Virus record (IMG/VR): IMGVR_UViG_3300045539_000150
Coordinates: 1-54,705 of that record
Source: a virus
Length of the DNA stretch: 54,705 nucleotides
Strand: one strand, 5' to 3'
The position numbers were made by a program, and so were the translations under genes. Every line of letters begins with the position of its first letter. Position 1 is the stretch's first letter. This document shows, piece by piece, positions 5,929 through 48,372 of this stretch. The notes beneath the pieces are model-generated. The model was not told where the DNA came from, made no database searches, and worked only from the letters and a program-made list of their open reading frames with translations.

Positions 5929-6756
5929 TTAAAATCTAAGCCACTTTGGAGACCAAAGTATGCCAATATTAATTGAAGGTCCATATGAAATTACACCACT
6001 TCCAAGGTTTATTCCATATCCAACTCCAATTCCAGCAGAAAACCCTGCCTTCTTTGTATTCTTTTCATTTAGTTTATCGTTAACTAAATTTATATTTTCA
6101 ATATTAGTAAAGGTAACTCCAGGATATGGAGTACTTATTCTAAGAGAGTTAACTCCATTTTCGTTTAAGATAGCTGCCTTTAATTCAATTCCCTGTTCAA
6201 AATCAAATCTACTTGATACCACTGACAAATTATTATCTTTGCCCTTTAAGATATTTATGTTTCCATTGAATCTTCTCCAGTTATATTTATCCCAATTTTT
6301 ATTGTCATCAAATTTAACACTTGAAATACTATCGTTAATTGCAACAATAGATACCTTTGAGTTTATGATTGAATCCTTTATTTTTAGATCTGCTCTTAAA
6401 AATGAGTTTACTTTATTTAAACCACTATTAATATTTAATGCAGTTTGATAACTTGATAATAGTTTTTTATTTTCAGAGCTTAAGGAATTTATATCGAATT
6501 CATATGTTTTTTTAATAGCAACTAATTGGCCATTTTTATTTCTTTCAATCTTAATAGTATCTAAACTTGCTTTGTAATTATTAAGTTCTCTATTAGCTAC
6601 CATTTGTGTTTGGGTAACTTCTCTCTTTAGGGAAGATATAGAATCACATTGCTTTAAGAAAAGCAAAATAAAGACAATAAGACTGATATAAAGAATATCA
6701 GTCTTTGTTAGTTTTAGATTTTTAATCCAATTTATTATTTTAGTTATGTATATCAT
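5929..6756 (-). CDS. Membrane-anchored envelope protein, spanin-like candidate
   Basis: 275 residues. After a basic start, one hydrophobic segment (about residues 19-37, ILYISLIVFILLFLK) should cross the inner membrane. A long periplasmic region rich in helix and coiled coil follows (about 40-150). The C-terminus has alternating Gly/aromatic strands (GVGYGINLG, YGPSINIGILW) and ends in Phe, like an outer-membrane beta signal. This layout would let one protein reach from the inner to the outer membrane, as spanins do in lysis. Such one-TM coiled-coil proteins are common in phages of Bacteroidota as families of unknown function. It lies between fibre and structural genes; no endolysin or holin was seen nearby, so the lysis role is inference. 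Confidence 0.5.
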   Translation of the reverse strand: MIYITKIINWIKNLKLTKTDILYISLIVFILLFLKQCDSISSLKREVTQTQMVANRELNNYKASLDTIKIERNKNGQLVAIKKTYEFDINSLSSENKKLLSSYQTALNINSGLNKVNSFLRADLKIKDSIINSKVSIVAINDSISSVKFDDNKNWDKYNWRRFNGNINILKGKDNNLSVVSSRFDFEQGIELKAAILNENGVNSLRISTPYPGVTFTNIENINLVNDKLNEKNTKKAGFSAGIGVGYGINLGSGVISYGPSINIGILWSPKWLRF

Positions 6757-6758
6757 TA

Positions 6759-9122
6759 TTATAAATTATTGTATACTTCAAACCATGCAGAATCAGCAAG
6801 ACTTGTTGAATATGACCAAACTAACCCTGCAGTATAAGAAGTAGAAGGATCTAATGTATATAGCGCAATACTCATAGTGCTAGGAGTATTAGGAGCCGGT
6901 CGGGGTGCCAGTGTGTAATAGTTAGGCGAATATACTACTCCTTGAAAATTAGAGTAAGCACTTAGCGAGTTACCTGAAATACCATCATTATCTGCGAATA
7001 CACTTGCATAGTTGTTAACTTGATTAACCAATTTCATTTTTATATAAACAGCAACATCTGTATTATTATAAACAATAACATTAGCAGAACCTGCATTTTG
7101 AGTTATTGGATATACTGGAGTTCCGGTTGTCTCCAACCAAACTGCCGGCAATTGTAAAGTAGGTTCTGCTGAAACATGGAAATTTACTTGAAAAGCAGGG
7201 TTTACTCCCGTTAAGGTAACATTTACTGTAACCTCACTTCCTTCATCACCAGATCCTGTAAATGTTCTGCTATTTATAGTCATCACACCATTATTGACAT
7301 ATGGAATAGATATATCAGCTGCAGTTAGAGGTGCTGTAAATAAATAATCTGCCTCTGCTGTTACTATTAAGTCAAATGTATATCCACTATTAAGATTGTA
7401 ATTTACAGTAACTGGTAAAATTCCGAAATAAGGATACATGGTTGCATGCGCAGGGTACGTTCCTGTTTGAAATAATTGTATTGGAACAGTAGGCAGCGCA
7501 GTAAACATTCCCGAAGTGTCAATTCCAATTGTAGCCATTGTTCCATTTGCAGGCTGAATGTCTACACTAATGTCTAATGTCAACGTTGTTGGATTTACTC
7601 CAGCTGCTAATGTTTTTATAATTCCATCAATATACCCTGGATGTGTTAATGTTGGTATACTATTCCAATAATATCCAGCAGGGGCGGTTATAATTGCCTG
7701 ATGAAAATAAGATCCTCCTTGAGTATATGCTGCTGCTCCTGCTGAAATAGTTCCAAGGTTAGGAGATACCGTATTTGCATCTACTAATTGAAAATTCAAA
7801 GTGGTAGTTGGGGCCTGTCCAGTTCCTTTATCGCTCCAATATAAATTAGACTTCGCCAAATAAATAATCTGTGGAAGTTTTTTAATTTTAAAAGGAGTTG
7901 CTCCGGTTGCAGTATTAAATACAACATCGTTAGTTTGTATTGTTTGTCCAATTGCATATGTACCAGCTCCTTGAAAATTAGCTGTCATATTAATATCGGC
8001 TCCACCTACTATATTAATTGCATTATTTGGTACACCACCTGCATTTCCCTGACTGTTTATATCCGTACTAGCAGTATTATCTGGAATTGAATATGAAAAT
8101 GAATTTAAATCTGGAACCAATGTGGTTCCTTGTACAGTACCATCCGTCCAATATTGTCCATTACATAGGTACCAACCTTCATAATCTCCAATACCTGCAC
8201 CAACTATTATCTTAAGAACATCATTAATTGTATTTGGTAATTGAGTTAAATCAATTGTTTGTGCATTTATAAATCTAGTGTTATCAGCAAATACAGAAGG
8301 AAGTATTGAAATTATAGTTCCATAGGGTACAGTTCCTCCAAGTTCTTGAATGCTTTTAAATGTAACAAGACCACTTGCATCTACTGATGTTGCGATTTTA
8401 TTAAGACCTGCTGCTGCATTTTCAATATAAAGTTCACTATTAATTTTAACTGGAGAGTTAAAATGTGCATCCTTATCAAACGTTATTAAATTTGTACTAA
8501 TCGATAATATATTAGTACCTATGACATTACTTTTAAAAATATGATTATCGGCATTCCAGATAATTCTGGTTGGAAGTGCAAAGCCAGATTCCTTAAACGA
8601 CATTCTAAATATTGTTTTATTAATAGCTTGGTCATAATGTATTCTAAAGTCGAAATGATTATCTAAAACATCGCTACTTTTAAAACGTAAATTAGAATAA
8701 AAGTGGGCTTTTCTATTAATAATCCACTGATATGGTGATTGTCCATTATTTAACGACTGATGTGTATTATATTCAGGATCTGATGATAAAAAACCAATAC
8801 TAATTACAGGTGGATTAAGAGCGCCTGGCACCAACGCTACCGGAAATAACGTATCTGTTGTAAGAGAACTATTATCTCCATCTATTCTTTTCCAATATGA
8901 TTCAGTATTAGCACCGGGTTGTCCAACATTTCCCTGAAACCCCATTGTTCCTTGAAAACCCTGAGGCCCCATAACACCCTGAAACCCTGTGTCTCCTTTA
9001 GGACCCAAAGGACCTTGAGGACCACCGCCATTTGCAACTAATTGGTCAAAATTATAATTAACTTTGTCTAATTTAATATTGTCGCTATCAGAAGTACTAA
9101 TTTGTTTTAAATTGATTGCCAT
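6759..9122 (-). CDS. Tail fibre with collagen-like and tail-collar domains (A)
   Basis: 787 residues. The order is: an N-terminal NYNFDQL segment, collagen-like Gly-X-Y repeats (about residues 33-71, rich in GFQG and GPQG), a beta-rich shaft, then a phage tail-collar domain around residues 255-430 with the signature EGWYLCNGQYW. A long C-terminal region of Ig-like or beta-sandwich repeats is likely the receptor-binding part. Collagen-like stretches in phage fibres form trimeric stalks. It is paralogous to the next upstream gene over its N-terminal half only; the C-terminal parts differ, as expected for adhesins that diversify. It probably recognises a cell-surface glycan or protein. Confidence 0.75.
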   Translation of the reverse strand: MAINLKQISTSDSDNIKLDKVNYNFDQLVANGGGPQGPLGPKGDTGFQGVMGPQGFQGTMGFQGNVGQPGANTESYWKRIDGDNSSLTTDTLFPVALVPGALNPPVISIGFLSSDPEYNTHQSLNNGQSPYQWIINRKAHFYSNLRFKSSDVLDNHFDFRIHYDQAINKTIFRMSFKESGFALPTRIIWNADNHIFKSNVIGTNILSISTNLITFDKDAHFNSPVKINSELYIENAAAGLNKIATSVDASGLVTFKSIQELGGTVPYGTIISILPSVFADNTRFINAQTIDLTQLPNTINDVLKIIVGAGIGDYEGWYLCNGQYWTDGTVQGTTLVPDLNSFSYSIPDNTASTDINSQGNAGGVPNNAINIVGGADINMTANFQGAGTYAIGQTIQTNDVVFNTATGATPFKIKKLPQIIYLAKSNLYWSDKGTGQAPTTTLNFQLVDANTVSPNLGTISAGAAAYTQGGSYFHQAIITAPAGYYWNSIPTLTHPGYIDGIIKTLAAGVNPTTLTLDISVDIQPANGTMATIGIDTSGMFTALPTVPIQLFQTGTYPAHATMYPYFGILPVTVNYNLNSGYTFDLIVTAEADYLFTAPLTAADISIPYVNNGVMTINSRTFTGSGDEGSEVTVNVTLTGVNPAFQVNFHVSAEPTLQLPAVWLETTGTPVYPITQNAGSANVIVYNNTDVAVYIKMKLVNQVNNYASVFADNDGISGNSLSAYSNFQGVVYSPNYYTLAPRPAPNTPSTMSIALYTLDPSTSYTAGLVWSYSTSLADSAWFEVYNNL

Positions 9123-42958: not shown

Positions 42959-43285
42959 TTATATATCCTCTTTTTTTAACATATATTCAAAACTAGATGG
43001 AGTGATATGTTTTTGCATTTTTAGTGCCTTAATTATTATAGCAACAATTACACCACCTGGCATAAGTGCTATTGTAGTTAGACCTATTGTTTTTAAAACA
43101 TCTTTAAATTGATTACCTACCCATTCCTTTTGAGAATCTTCTAATATGTGGCCATATATCACATGACCATATAATAAATTAAAAGCCATGTGGGTTTCTT
43201 TTCCTTCAAGTTTTAATGCATAAATAAATCTTTTAAAATTTATTCTAAATTCATCAAGGTGTAGCGAGCTAACATGTTTTTTCAT
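42959..43285 (-). CDS. Small LETM1-like membrane-associated protein
   Basis: 108 residues. A helical N-terminus (FRINFKRFIYALKLEGKE) is followed by FKDVLKTIGLTTIALMPGGV and IVAIIIKALKMQKHITPSSF. This combination of a hydrophobic segment, a PGG turn and a final P-x-S-F resembles the C-terminal part of LETM1-related proteins, which flavobacteria also carry. LETM1 domains in mitochondria bind ribosomes, so a membrane or ribosome connection is possible. The similarity is a pattern recalled by eye. The ATG overlaps the UVDE stop by one base. Confidence 0.5.
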   Translation of the reverse strand: MKKHVSSLHLDEFRINFKRFIYALKLEGKETHMAFNLLYGHVIYGHILEDSQKEWVGNQFKDVLKTIGLTTIALMPGGVIVAIIIKALKMQKHITPSSFEYMLKKEDI

Positions 43286-44205
43286 TAACTATATATCATT
43301 GAGAAATCCTTGTGGTACTTTTGTAATGCTAATTCCTTTGCCTTTGCTTCTATTTCAATATCTAATTCCATACCATACGTTTCTATAAATTCATATAGAT
43401 AATCGGCATGGGCTCGTAAAATAACTGTACTATCTTCGTGTAATTTTTTAGAAGATGAGTAGTGACATAATTGACGAATATTCTTTGGCCATGTAGTTGC
43501 ACATAAATCTAATGCTTCTTTTTCAGAGATAGAATCCTCATAACAAAAATGGTGGAAGAAGTCAAATGTAATTGGAGTTCCACATAATTTATAAATTTCA
43601 TATAAATCGCGAACACCATATTGACTTGGTTTATCGTCATTTTCTAGGACAAGACGAGATGCTGCACATTCTGGTAATAGTTTAAAGTTTTCTGCAAATC
43701 TTTCTATTGCAGAATCTTTGTCGCCATAAGTTCCACCTACATGGATATTCATCGCGGCGTATGGAGTTCTTGGTAATCCCATTAAATCCATAGCCTTTCC
43801 ATGTTGGGTTAATTCCCATATTGCATTCTGTACTACCTTTGGATTTGGACTTGCAAGAATATTAAAAGGACCTGGGTGGAATGTAAGTCTTTGACCTACT
43901 TTATTTGCATAATCTCCTGCCTGTTTTAATAATACCTTGATATTATTAAAGTTTGGTAAATCTTCTATATCGTATTCTGAATTCCAAGGGAACATGCTAG
44001 ATGACATACGATACATTGTAATTCCATTTGTATGATTCCATTTAAGAATTTCAATCATATCCCTAAGGTTAGCTTCGGCCAATTCACCTGCATACGTAAT
44101 TCCCTTTGCTTCGAAAGTTCTTTTAATCATGCTTCTACCTATCTTAATTCCCTTTTGCTTGTCCAATGTTAAATTGATACAACAATATCCGTAATTTGCT
44201 CCCAT
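43285..44205 (-). CDS. UV-damage endonuclease (UVDE/UvsE)
   Basis: 306 residues with the TIM-barrel repair-nuclease pattern of UVDE: YGYCCINLTL at the start, MYRMSSSMFPW (about 64-74), RLTFHPGPF (about 105-113), NIHVGGTYGDK (about 155-165), RLVLENDD (about 184-191) and FDFFHHFCYED (about 215-225). The conserved His, Glu and Asp bind three metals. It nicks 5' to UV photoproducts and starts alternative excision repair. T4 uses DenV glycosylase instead, so this is a different solution to UV damage, plausible for a phage of sunlit water. It starts the second gene of a short operon. Confidence 0.9.
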   Translation of the reverse strand: MGANYGYCCINLTLDKQKGIKIGRSMIKRTFEAKGITYAGELAEANLRDMIEILKWNHTNGITMYRMSSSMFPWNSEYDIEDLPNFNNIKVLLKQAGDYANKVGQRLTFHPGPFNILASPNPKVVQNAIWELTQHGKAMDLMGLPRTPYAAMNIHVGGTYGDKDSAIERFAENFKLLPECAASRLVLENDDKPSQYGVRDLYEIYKLCGTPITFDFFHHFCYEDSISEKEALDLCATTWPKNIRQLCHYSSSKKLHEDSTVILRAHADYLYEFIETYGMELDIEIEAKAKELALQKYHKDFSMIYS

Positions 44206-44608: not shown

Positions 44609-44953
44609 TTATTTCCAGAATATCTGTACACAAATTAATATAAATGCAAGTGATAATGATACAATTGTTTTGGTATTTAAAGGTTCATTCATAATCATAT
44701 AAGTTAAAAATGAAAATGCGATCATTCCTGTGGTAAATCCTATAAATCTGCCAGGCCATAACTGACCATCATAATATTCTGCAACATACGCAGTTGCAAC
44801 AATAAACATATATGAAATGCCGGAACCTCCTACAATTGATATTATCATAGGATGCTTCTTAAACCATGGCCAAACAAACTGTCCATTGGTTTGAAACCAT
44901 ATAAGAGATTGTCCCAATAAAAATAATAAAGAACCATAGATTAGATTTTTCAA
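44609..44953 (-). CDS. Small integral membrane protein
   Basis: 114 residues with four likely transmembrane segments (about 4-18, 36-58, 67-86 and 94-112: LIYGSLLFLLGQSLIW, IISIVGGSGISYMFIV, FIGFTTGMIAFSFLTY, TIVSLSLAFILICVQIF). The end MNEPLNTKTIVSLSLAFILIC resembles small DMT/EmrE-type halves, but this is only a look-alike. The only start before the first segment is TTG at 44953, overlapping the RNase HII stop (TTGA), so I use it. A holin role is conceivable; four segments do not fit the common holin classes well. Confidence 0.6.
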   Translation of the reverse strand: MKNLIYGSLLFLLGQSLIWFQTNGQFVWPWFKKHPMIISIVGGSGISYMFIVATAYVAEYYDGQLWPGRFIGFTTGMIAFSFLTYMIMNEPLNTKTIVSLSLAFILICVQIFWK

Positions 44954-45582
44954 AATAAAGAACCAGTTGAAGTTAATAAATGGGATATAAAACTTGGACG
45001 GTGCGATTCATTTGCACCAATTTCCTTAATAGCCTTAATATGTTGTGCGGTACCATATCCTTTATTAGAATTCCAACCATATCCTGGAGTTTTAATATCT
45101 AACTCCTTCATTAGTGCATCTCTTTCGGTTTTTGCCAAAATACTTGCGGCGGCAATCGATATGTATTTATTATCTCCACCAACTATGGTTTCAAATGGCA
45201 TGCCATCAAATCCATGAAATTGATCTCCATCAATAAGAATAAAATCAAAGTTATTATTTTCTTTGACTTTAGCCAAGCATTCATTCATTCCTTGTAATGT
45301 TGCTCTTAAGATATTGGTAGCCTCAATTTGTTCTGGATAAATGTGAACAATGCTATATGCAATTGCATTATCAAGTACAACTTGTCTTGCATCTTTTCGT
45401 TGTTGTTCATTAAGAAGTTTAGAATCTTTAATAAGGGGGTGTTCAAATCCAAATGGCATAATACATGCGGAAACAGTAACGGGACCTGCAAGGGCTCCTC
45501 TGCCTGCCTCATCCACTCCAATTTCTATTGTTTCTTCTACTCCAGTATAACTTGATTTGAGTAATATTTGTCTAGTTTCCAT
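44950..45582 (-). CDS. rnhB: Ribonuclease HII
   Basis: 210 residues, a complete RNase HII. The GxDEAGRG motif carries D24 and E25, D118 lies in LIDGD, and D137 precedes the IAAASILAK signature (about 143-151). The end shows YGWNSNKGYGT and SHRPSF. It cuts RNA in RNA-DNA hybrids, so it can remove primers and ribonucleotides. T4 encodes an unrelated FEN-type RNase H. Its ATG (45580-45582) lies within one arm of a 13-bp hairpin, which may hide the start from ribosomes. It overlaps the following membrane gene by four bases. Confidence 0.9.
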   Translation of the reverse strand: METRQILLKSSYTGVEETIEIGVDEAGRGALAGPVTVSACIMPFGFEHPLIKDSKLLNEQQRKDARQVVLDNAIAYSIVHIYPEQIEATNILRATLQGMNECLAKVKENNNFDFILIDGDQFHGFDGMPFETIVGGDNKYISIAAASILAKTERDALMKELDIKTPGYGWNSNKGYGTAQHIKAIKEIGANESHRPSFISHLLTSTGSLF

Positions 45583-45629: not shown

Positions 45630-46340
45630 TTACTTAAATGGATTATCGATCATCCATTTATCATAGCGTCCTACTACTTCTTGTAGAATTTTAGCTCTAA
45701 CAATATCTGAATTTGAAAATTTATGATGTCCAACTCCATTTATGCCTTGCATTAATTCAATAAATCCAGTTAAACCGGCATTCGCCTTTGGAATATCGTA
45801 TTGACTTATATCTCCGGTAACTAATACCTTTGAACTTTTACCCATTCTTGTGGTGAATAACATAAGTTGTTTAAACGTTGCATTTTGTGCTTCATCTAAA
45901 ATCATAAAGGCATCATCAAATGTATCGCCTCGCATAAATGCAAGAGGTTTAAATTCTATTAGACCATGATGGATTAAACTTTCAGTCAATTCATTTCCAA
46001 CAATTTTTTTAAAGTTAGAAATATATGATTGCATATATGGATCTATTTTATCTGCGATATCTCCTGGAAGGAATCCAAGTTTTTCACCAGATTCCTGTAT
46101 TGGTTTACATAGGATTATTTTTTTTACCTTTTTTTCAGCAAGTAAATACAATGAAGTATAACATGCTGTAAATGTTTTTGAAGTTCCGGCTGGACCAGAA
46201 CAAAACGTTATATCATTTTTTAATATTTGATTGACGTATTCTCTTTGATTATTTTTTAAATTAACGTGCTTAATGTCTTCCTCTTTAACTGACATTTTTT
46301 TAATGGTTGGACCATGTTCAGAACCCGTTTTCTTTTGCAT
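45630..46340 (-). CDS. phoH: PhoH-like ATPase
   Basis: 236 residues. Walker A is GPAGTSKT at 49-56, Walker B is FMILDEAQ at 145-152 (D149, E150), and a sensor-like VTGDISQYD lies near 174-182. The PhoH family are RNA-helicase-like P-loop ATPases, often encoded by marine phages and widespread in bacteria, with links to RNA metabolism in some hosts. The place between bS21/DnaJ and RNase HII suits an RNA-handling role; the older link to phosphate starvation is not supported by any local feature. Confidence 0.85.
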   Translation of the reverse strand: MQKKTGSEHGPTIKKMSVKEEDIKHVNLKNNQREYVNQILKNDITFCSGPAGTSKTFTACYTSLYLLAEKKVKKIILCKPIQESGEKLGFLPGDIADKIDPYMQSYISNFKKIVGNELTESLIHHGLIEFKPLAFMRGDTFDDAFMILDEAQNATFKQLMLFTTRMGKSSKVLVTGDISQYDIPKANAGLTGFIELMQGINGVGHHKFSNSDIVRAKILQEVVGRYDKWMIDNPFK

Positions 46341-46354
46341 ATAATTGAGTATAT

Positions 46355-46612
46355 TTAGTCACCTGCCATTATGACAAGTTCCTTTAATTTTTTAAGTGTT
46401 TCACACTTCTCGTATTCCTCCAGTTCTACAAAATATTCAGTAAGAAGTTCAATAAAGTCGCTTCGTTGTCCAATTCCATGCGGAATATCTATTGTGTTTT
46501 TACTATCCTGATATACGATAAATCGGTTGACAGTTTTTGTAAAATTTCTTGTGATTATATAGTAGCTGGATCGCATCAAAGAGTCTCTTTCCTCTCTTGT
46601 AATTTCTTCCAT
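46355..46612 (-). CDS. Small protein with C-terminal EEYEKC motif (1)
   Basis: 85 residues. The N-terminal part (EEITREERDSLMRSSYYIITRNFTK) differs from its two relatives. The C-terminus has YFVELEEYEKCETLKKLKELV. The same block (hydrophobic-x-E-x-EEYEKC-x2-[IL]K) ends the proteins at 46880-47134 and 48088-48372. It resembles the UVR motif (FEKAAELRD) of UvrB, UvrC, McsA and ClpC, which mediates protein contacts. It may bind a shared partner. The gene stands between bS21 and PhoH, 14 bases upstream of PhoH. Confidence 0.65.
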   Translation of the reverse strand: MEEITREERDSLMRSSYYIITRNFTKTVNRFIVYQDSKNTIDIPHGIGQRSDFIELLTEYFVELEEYEKCETLKKLKELVIMAGD

Positions 46613-46709
46613 CTTATTTTAAATGTTTTTACAGTATGTTTAACTATACTTATATTATATATTTAGATGGTTGTTTGATTTAATCTCTAGGGTAAAAAAG
46701 GTTAGTATA

Positions 46710-46889
46710 TTATAAATTCTGGGATTGTTTATATTTTGCTTTACTAATCACTTTTCTTTTTACAATAGATGGTTTTTCAAATTCCTTTCTTTCTCTAAGT
46801 TCTTGTAATTGTTTTGTGGAAAACACTTTTCTTTTTAAATTTTTAAGTGCTTTTTCAATATTACCGTTTTCTACCTTGGTTATAAGCAT
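46710..46889 (-). CDS. rpsU: bS21-like ribosomal protein (59 aa)
   Basis: A short gene (59 codons plus TAA) open from the ATG at 46889. It has the order of bacterial S21: an N-terminal VENGNIEKALKNLKRK helix, RERKEFEKPSIVKRK, and a basic tail with Y53 (KAKYKQSQNL). S21 normally reads E-x2-x-x-AL+x+K+, RxRxxYEKP, x+++. It should join the 30S subunit near the 16S rRNA 3' end. In Flavobacterium ribosomes, bS21 with bS6 and bS18 shields the anti-Shine-Dalgarno tail; I recall a tyrosine near position 54 taking part. The ATG overlaps the upstream stop by ten bases (ATGCTTATAA), so it is coupled to that EEYEKC gene. Confidence 0.88.
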   Translation of the reverse strand: MLITKVENGNIEKALKNLKRKVFSTKQLQELRERKEFEKPSIVKRKVISKAKYKQSQNL

Positions 46890-47134
46890 GAAAGTTTATC
46901 TATTATTTTTTTTAATTCTTTGCATTTTTCATACTCTTCTCTTTCTTTGAAAAAGTTTAGTACGCTTTGTACTCCATCAATTTTATCTGATATAGGGGCA
47001 TCATGTTTTAAAGCACCCATTTTATCTCCAACTATGGAATTATATATAATTTCCATCATGTCTTCACGCGAAGACTCATGTAATTTTTTAATAAATCTAA
47101 TTTCGTTATTATCGTATTCTTCTAAATCATCCAT
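46880..47134 (-). CDS. Small protein with C-terminal EEYEKC motif (2)
   Basis: 84 residues. An acidic N-terminal part (DDLEEYDNNEIRFIKKLH) and a middle with GDKMGALKHDAPISDK precede the C-terminal NFFKEREEYEKCKELKKII block shared with two neighbours. It overlaps the DnaJ-like gene by eight bases and bS21 by ten, so bS21 translation is probably coupled to it. The motif resembles a UVR element. Whether it touches the ribosome or a chaperone complex is unknown. Confidence 0.7.
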   Translation of the reverse strand: MDDLEEYDNNEIRFIKKLHESSREDMMEIIYNSIVGDKMGALKHDAPISDKIDGVQSVLNFFKEREEYEKCKELKKIIDKLSCL

Positions 47135-47924
47135 TGGAATCTTTAATCTTTTTTAGTAATTCAATTTGAGAATCTGATAAATTAATAGGTAGAGTTCTAA
47201 GCTTTACCATTAAATTACCGCATCCTTCTGAATTATATATTGGCATTCCTTTTCCAACTACTCTAAGTATTTTAGAATCATGGGAACCTTGAGGAACTTT
47301 AATCCTTACAGTATGAACCTTTGTTTTTACTTCAAATTCACCACCTAATAACATATCGATCCAATCTAAACTAAGGTCGACATAAATATCAGCACCATTT
47401 ACAATAAGATCTATATTTGGTGTGACATTAACTGTTAATATTATATCTCCTGCTCTCGCACCTGTATTGATTGGATGCCTTTGACCTTTTTCTTTGATTT
47501 TAAGTTTCGTGCCATTCGGAATTCCCTTAGGTATATTAATATTAAATCCACCAGTGCCGACATCGATGTACCTTCTTGTTCCTTCATAACTTTCTTCTAT
47601 TGTTATATTTATTGCAACTCTAATATCAAACCCTCTGACATCTCCACCAAATGATTGGTCAAATGCCTGCGAAAAATTATAATTGGCAAATATATCGTTC
47701 CATGCATCATTTACATTAAATGAATTGGAACCTCCTGTTCCGTCATGTTTTCTGCGTTTTATAGGATCGCCTAAAATTTCATATGCTTCTGATATCCTTT
47801 TAAAATGAGAGTCATCTCCTCCTGTTTTATCAGGATGGTACTCCTTTACAAGAGTTCTATACGATTTTTTAATATCGTCTTGTGACGCATCTCGAGAAAC
47901 ATTAAGAGTTTCATAATAATTCAT
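47127..47924 (-). CDS. DnaJ-like co-chaperone without zinc domain (CbpA type)
   Basis: 265 residues. The J domain (about 2-62) contains HPD at 30-32 (VKEYHPDKTGG), needed to stimulate Hsp70. A Gly/Asn/Phe-poor linker (about 62-100) is followed by the C-terminal peptide-binding domains (INITIEESYEGTRRYIDVG ... GDIILTVNVTPNIDLIVNG, DLSLDWIDMLLGGEFEVKT). The cysteine-rich zinc domain of DnaJ is absent, as in CbpA. The phage may redirect host DnaK to folding of virion or replication proteins. It is followed by an 8-base overlap with the next small gene. Confidence 0.88.
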   Translation of the reverse strand: MNYYETLNVSRDASQDDIKKSYRTLVKEYHPDKTGGDDSHFKRISEAYEILGDPIKRRKHDGTGGSNSFNVNDAWNDIFANYNFSQAFDQSFGGDVRGFDIRVAINITIEESYEGTRRYIDVGTGGFNINIPKGIPNGTKLKIKEKGQRHPINTGARAGDIILTVNVTPNIDLIVNGADIYVDLSLDWIDMLLGGEFEVKTKVHTVRIKVPQGSHDSKILRVVGKGMPIYNSEGCGNLMVKLRTLPINLSDSQIELLKKIKDSNG

Positions 47925-47926
47925 AT

Positions 47927-48064
47927 CTATTTTTTAGATGATGTTTTATTAGCCTCTTGAATTTTCTTTTTATTTAATGCAACCTCTCTTGATTGCTTGT
48001 TTTCCATGCATACTGCGATACGTAATAAACTATCTGCAATGCTCTTTAATACTTCTTCGTTCAT
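47927..48064 (-). CDS. Very small hypothetical protein (45 aa)
   Basis: 45 residues from the ATG at 48064 to TAG at 47927-47929. It reads as a helical, Lys-rich peptide (MNEEVLKSIADSLLRIAVCM, then ENKQSREVALNKKKIQ). It fills the gap between the 94-aa gene and DnaJ, with the stop two bases before the DnaJ ATG. Its placement and amphipathic pattern support a real gene, although such short frames can arise by chance. Function unknown. Confidence 0.6.
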   Translation of the reverse strand: MNEEVLKSIADSLLRIAVCMENKQSREVALNKKKIQEANKTSSKK

Positions 48065-48087: not shown

Positions 48088-48372
48088 TTAAATTCTTTCT
48101 AGTATTTCCTTGATTTTAGAACATTTTTCATATTCTTCAACCTCGACGAATATTTCTAGCATTTGATTAAGAGTTATGTTCAAGGCTTTAATATCCAATC
48201 CATTATTCTTCATCATTTTTATATCTATTCCATTTTCTATAATCATATTATAGTTTTCGTTTGCTAATTTCATTTTTAGCTCATACATAGCCTCTTCCAT
48301 CTGTGCCTCTTTTTTCATAGTTTCGATTTCGTTATCTTCCTCGAATAGTTCATTAAAGTTAAAGTCGTCCAT
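48088..48372 (-). CDS. Small protein with C-terminal EEYEKC motif (3)
   Basis: 94 residues. An acidic first third (DDFNFNELFEEDNEIETM), a Met/Asn-rich helical middle and the C-terminal IFVEVEEYEKCSKIKEILERI block. The block is shared with the proteins at 46355-46612 and 46880-47134, the rest is not. It is the first gene after the promoter-like end of the 83-bp element (22 bases to the ATG), so it leads the operon carrying DnaJ, bS21 and PhoH. Confidence 0.7.
   Translation of the reverse strand: MDDFNFNELFEEDNEIETMKKEAQMEEAMYELKMKLANENYNMIIENGIDIKMMKNNGLDIKALNITLNQMLEIFVEVEEYEKCSKIKEILERI

Follow-up and report, generated by a model that had tools for sequence, protein, structure and literature searches.

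Why a phage should carry its own gene for the ribosomal protein bS21, and how the expression of such a gene stands to the autoregulation of the bacterial one, is the question raised by a short open reading frame in the viral record IMGVR_UViG_3300045539_000150, the 54,705 nucleotides of which were analysed as a whole (the window). Genes for bS21 have been described in phages before, some of them from Bacteroidota phages and with the tyrosine known as Tyr54 (Mizuno 2019, Al-Shayeb 2020, Chen 2022). The useful additions made here are a contrast between the leaders of phage and bacterial bS21 genes, the overlap of the phage gene with its upstream neighbour EEY1, and a slot that is empty of bS21 in some relatives.

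The bS21 gene and its phage

A sequence-only reading had placed a frame of 59 codons at 46710-46889, giving no strand. The frame is present on the minus strand, where translation of 46889..46710 yields 59 codons and a stop, MLITKVENGNIEKALKNLKRKVFSTKQLQELRERKEFEKPSIVKRKVISKAKYKQSQNL, with all the peptides quoted by that reading; the strand matters because translation of the plus strand at the same positions is interrupted by stops. The profile search proposed as a check of the S21 identity gave 51.2 bits with Pfam PF01165 (E=1e-13, cut-off 27, positions 3-54 of 55) and 43 bits with NCBIfam S21p TIGR00030 (cut-off 28.95), both above the curated cut-off across nearly the full length. Together with phrog_21469 'ribosomal protein S21' (E=2.7e-7) and the best PDB matches, 9i5v (E=2e-10) and 7jil from F. 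johnsoniae (E=5e-9), these values are far above chance and bear the identity out; among solved structures, the Flavobacterium-type bS21 is the closest. The statement that the gene is too short for most ORF callers does not stand, its 180 nt exceeding the usual minimum gene length of Prodigal, 90 nt. Moreover, 900 published bS21-encoding phages have been profiled by Chen 2022 (PMC9723584). The window contains one copy of bS21, for which a dN/dS of 0.08-0.17 (unsaturated pairs of the window and its cluster relatives) indicates purifying selection.

The alignment with Flavobacterium bS21, also proposed beforehand, showed that the C-terminal tyrosine is kept, Tyr53 of the phage protein corresponding to Tyr54 of F. 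johnsoniae, the position typical of the anti-SD-hiding Bacteroidia proteins; in F. johnsoniae this residue helps to conceal the 16S anti-Shine-Dalgarno tail. An aromatic residue occupies the equivalent position in 73 of the 76 distinct phage copies (64 Y, 5 F and 4 H), and the loop between helix 1 and helix 2 is mostly T-K-Q in phages versus T-G-T or T-G-V in most Flavobacteriaceae. The AlphaFold model predicts helices at 11-24, 27-33 and 40-58 (mean pLDDT 80; pTM low, 0.34), consistent with the basic protein of two to three helices expected for the family.

Profiles of a T4-like myovirus were found in the window for the baseplate wedge, head-tail adaptor, baseplate hub and single-strand-binding protein, and a UvdE-type UV endonuclease (43285-44205) scored above the Pfam cut-off. 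The nearest relatives of the baseplate wedge protein (gp6) belong to uncultured phages of 462-735 kb, to Prevotella Lak phages and to Tenacibaculum phages PTm1/PTm5, and those of the gp6-related phages that exceed 634 kb are predicted to replicate in Bacteroidetes. As the relatives are of this kind, a host in the Bacteroidota is supported, at the level of the phylum only. Scans of the window for tRNAs and for Rfam families gave none, a search with EEY1 for a host or prophage in 295 Bacteroidia genomes, run with no positive control, gave nothing, and no cultured phage carrying the bS21 of the window or its downstream neighbour EEY0 was found. Judged from sequence, the gene encodes a true bS21, and the phage that carries it is a T4-like myovirus of Bacteroidota.

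A conserved cluster with an optional bS21 slot

The start of bS21 and the end of EEY1 (46880..47134; 84 aa, directly upstream) share ten bases, ATGCTTATAA, at 46880-46889 on the minus strand, just as the sequence-only reading had described, and profile searches confirmed the neighbours named there: a DnaJ-like co-chaperone upstream of EEY1 (47127..47924), a PhoH-like ATPase (45630..46340) and RNase HII (44950..45582). The downstream border of the bS21 slot is formed by the highly conserved EEY0 (46355..46612; 85 aa), and the cluster further includes a small conserved protein of 45 aa (47927..48064) and EEY2 (48088..48372; 94 aa). All these genes lie on the minus strand, and the order EEY2, small 45-aa gene, DnaJ, EEY1, bS21, EEY0, PhoH and RNase HII is recurrent in IMG/VR. 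The start of bS21 overlaps the stop of EEY1, by 4-23 nt, in 16/16 of the distinct bS21-positive slots listed, which suggests that translation of bS21 is coupled to that of EEY1.

The C-terminal motif EEYEKC is common to EEY0, EEY1 and EEY2, three different small proteins for which no Pfam or PHROG family was found above cut-off. For EEY1 the prediction is a mainly helical protein whose C-terminus forms a hairpin; a fold search with it returned no significant match. The pattern had raised the suspicion of a UVR motif (UvrB/UvrC-like), which was dropped, there being neither Pfam support nor a significant fold match. At 46640-46670 of the minus strand, some 50 nt ahead of EEY0, phages retain a TAAATATATAATATA-like stretch whether or not they carry bS21; it may be a promoter. 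In one related record (L032, 6337-7420) an inserted gene (6460-7254), which by eye looks like a GIY-YIG/NUMOD homing endonuclease, comes after the PhoH gene and is itself followed by a second piece matching PhoH.

Many IMG/VR records contain EEY1 and EEY0 with no bS21 between them, the gap being 89-95 nt versus 264-308 nt where bS21 is present. EEY1, EEY0, PhoH and RNase HII all persist in these records, so that the EEY genes are not obligate partners of bS21. In a tree of PhoH and RNase HII, rooted by midpoint, the bS21-minus records (10 rows) come together in a single group (93/82) nested among bS21-positive rows; because of this nesting a single loss is the simplest reading, other patterns of gain and loss being possible. 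A search through the whole length of eight minus records, of which three measure 234-236 kb (record completeness not certified), found no bS21 elsewhere. The existence of such a clade shows, as far as these records go, that bS21 is dispensable in some relatives, and, whether the gene was lost from this fixed slot or never occupied it, the clade lends itself to a natural comparison with phages that are similar in other respects.

Leaders of phage and bacterial bS21 genes

For every bS21 gene fetched, the energy of base pairing with the F. johnsoniae 16S tail ACCUCCUUUCU was calculated from the 25 nt that precede the start, this single tail being applied to all leaders. The leader of the window gene, TAAAAAAAATAATAGATAAACTTTC (46890..46914, minus strand), has no Shine-Dalgarno sequence (SD) and pairs with -0.4 kcal/mol. 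The 76 distinct phage leaders have a median of -0.5 and a minimum of -6.2 kcal/mol, none lying below -8, nor does any of the 31 clusters formed at 70% identity; the extended SD (below -13 kcal/mol) that marks the autoregulation typical of Flavobacteriales is thus absent from the phage genes. The lack extends to the other genes of the window, where 0/50 carry AGGAG, GGAGG or GAGGT, the median is -0.3 kcal/mol and no gene has an SD.

The bacterial relatives nearest to the phage protein gave 69 distinct leaders with a median of -16.9 kcal/mol, 49 of them below -13. In Flavobacteriaceae the extended SD precedes 59/62 rpsU genes, the three weak leaders being those of second, SD-less gene copies in Tenacibaculum. 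An extended SD was reported for about 80% of Flavobacteriales rpsU (McNutt 2023), a figure that agrees with the strong fraction found here and serves as the positive control of the measure. Weak leaders were seen in the members of the Saprospirales, Crocinitomicaceae, Chitinophagaceae and Bacteroidales that were found, and in a wider Bacteroidia sample, drawn from the better-scoring three quarters of the matches and not perfectly even, 15/90 lay below -13 and 22/90 below -8 kcal/mol, which refutes an extended SD in all Bacteroidia rpsU. This sample still differs from the phage leaders (Fisher p=6e-7, relatedness uncorrected), but the contrast between phage and host leaders is to be taken as solid only against Flavobacteriaceae. 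No earlier report of it was found in the papers searched, among which were few subscription papers and no preprints.

The second Tenacibaculum gene without an SD was observed at three loci (L068 1480-1668; L085 1480-1668; L094), in the first two of them downstream of prfA; other Tenacibaculum copies have the extended SD. A contig labelled Limnohabitans (L113) carries a Flavobacterium-type bS21 with an extended SD and is probably misbinned.

A tree built from 193 bS21 proteins sets the 75 rows of phage origin on one side of a branch (99/87). The bacterial proteins nearest to them are those of SD-less Saprospirales (94/75) and the Tenacibaculum second copy, of which at least one lies near the phage group. 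Within the limits of a short alignment (63 columns, long branches, phage matches picked by similarity), the phage proteins are placed as a single lineage apart from the bacterial ones. Since the nearest bacterial genes lack an SD, the SD-less state may have been inherited from the donor; it may also be a consequence of the general lack of SDs in phage genes.

Possible role and comparison with known systems

The sequence-only reading had linked the gene to the concealment of the anti-SD by S21 in Bacteroidota, and this link holds. Compared with ribosomes that lack the bS21 C-terminus, those of wild-type F. johnsoniae are more efficient at initiating on SD-less mRNAs and less efficient on rpsU (PMC9976891). 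As Tyr53 is kept, the phage mRNAs are SD-less and bS21-replete ribosomes favour such mRNAs, the phage protein is likely to maintain the hiding of the anti-SD rather than relieve it, and a benefit to the phage from replete ribosomes is to be expected. We consider it rather probable that bS21, translated in coupling with EEY1, would enter host 30S subunits, by analogy with pelagiphage bS21 in E. coli, and keep the 3' tail of the 16S rRNA tucked away, with the result that ribosomes would favour SD-less phage messages, the gene itself lacking the host's autoregulation signal. Having no Flavobacteriaceae-type extended SD, it could be made at times when ribosomes are already replete and would translate the rpsU of the host slowly. 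Escape from host autoregulation, suggested by the leader, presupposes a Flavobacteriaceae-like host. That the unregulated gene goes as far as overriding the host circuit, being made by replete ribosomes with a hidden anti-SD while host rpsU is held down until phage bS21 takes over the ribosome pool, seems doubtful. Weighing against the favoured reading are the frequent absence of an extended SD from bacterial rpsU outside Flavobacteriaceae (the 15/90 above), an SD lack that is possibly inherited or general to phage genes, and the dispensability of bS21 in relatives.

Much of the same evidence fits a neutral substitute, which would top up the pool when host synthesis fails, leaving the choice of mRNA unchanged and needing no particular means of evading autoregulation: the lack of an SD, seen in all 50 window genes, would then be the general style of phage genes, Tyr53 is kept, and the clade without bS21 shows dispensability. 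We think this rather unlikely, as phage copies consistently differ from bacterial ones in the helix1-helix2 region, with a mostly TKQ-type loop; the phage divergence in the N-terminal helix was reported by Chen 2022 (PMC9723584). If the N-terminal half made ribosomes prefer phage transcripts through a specific contact with the mRNA, which is the proposal of Chen 2022, one would expect the divergence in that helix and loop and the conservation of the Tyr54 region that are seen (cf. PMC9723584), but the 50 window genes show no leader motif beyond A/T richness and such selection appears improbable. An action of bS21 outside the ribosome, on phage RNA together with the EEY proteins, PhoH or RNase HII, would account for the constant neighbourhood; it is very hard to reconcile with full-length bS21 features under purifying selection and with the persistence of EEY1, EEY0, PhoH and RNase HII without bS21, and we give it hardly any weight.

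The leader contrast bears on why phages carry bS21, and F. johnsoniae, in which the autoregulation is understood, would allow it to be tested sharply. Host bS21 autoregulation may act as a counter-defence, as suggested by McNutt 2023, and a phage bS21 gene without the autoregulatory leader would fit the opposing side of that contest.

The F. johnsoniae system (PMC9976891; PDB 7jil) has the family, the predicted helix pattern and the Tyr54 position in common with the phage protein, which is 47% identical to a Flavobacterium bS21 nearly identical to that of F. johnsoniae. The phage protein differs in its length (59 versus 64 aa), in having Lys26-Gln27 in place of Gly27-Thr28 and in the leader, which lacks the extended SD. 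Pelagiphage HTVC008M and uncultured viruses also encode bS21 (Mizuno 2019, PMC6375957), and incorporation of the HTVC008M protein into E. coli 70S ribosomes was shown (PMC6375957), but its lineage is alphaproteobacterial, with no Bacteroidia-type anti-SD hiding known. The nearest proteins in the phage collection (47-53% identity) are those of huge phages with Bacteroidetes-predicted hosts (Al-Shayeb 2020, PMC7162821; LR756501-LR756504, LR745206); N-terminal extensions, reported in that paper for many of the huge-phage proteins, are absent from the window protein. The freshwater Bacteroidetes myoviruses of Chen 2022 (PMC9723584) share with the window a Flavobacteriia-type bS21, the retained Tyr54 or other aromatic residue, which that study had already reported for its 61 sequences together with the Tyr54 argument, the myovirus setting, and the clustering of phage copies apart from bacterial ones. 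In the clades of that study bS21 is encoded on the opposite strand, in a region of TerL, portal, protease and capsid genes, whereas in the window it is co-directional with the DnaJ-EEY-PhoH-RNase HII cluster and overlaps EEY1.
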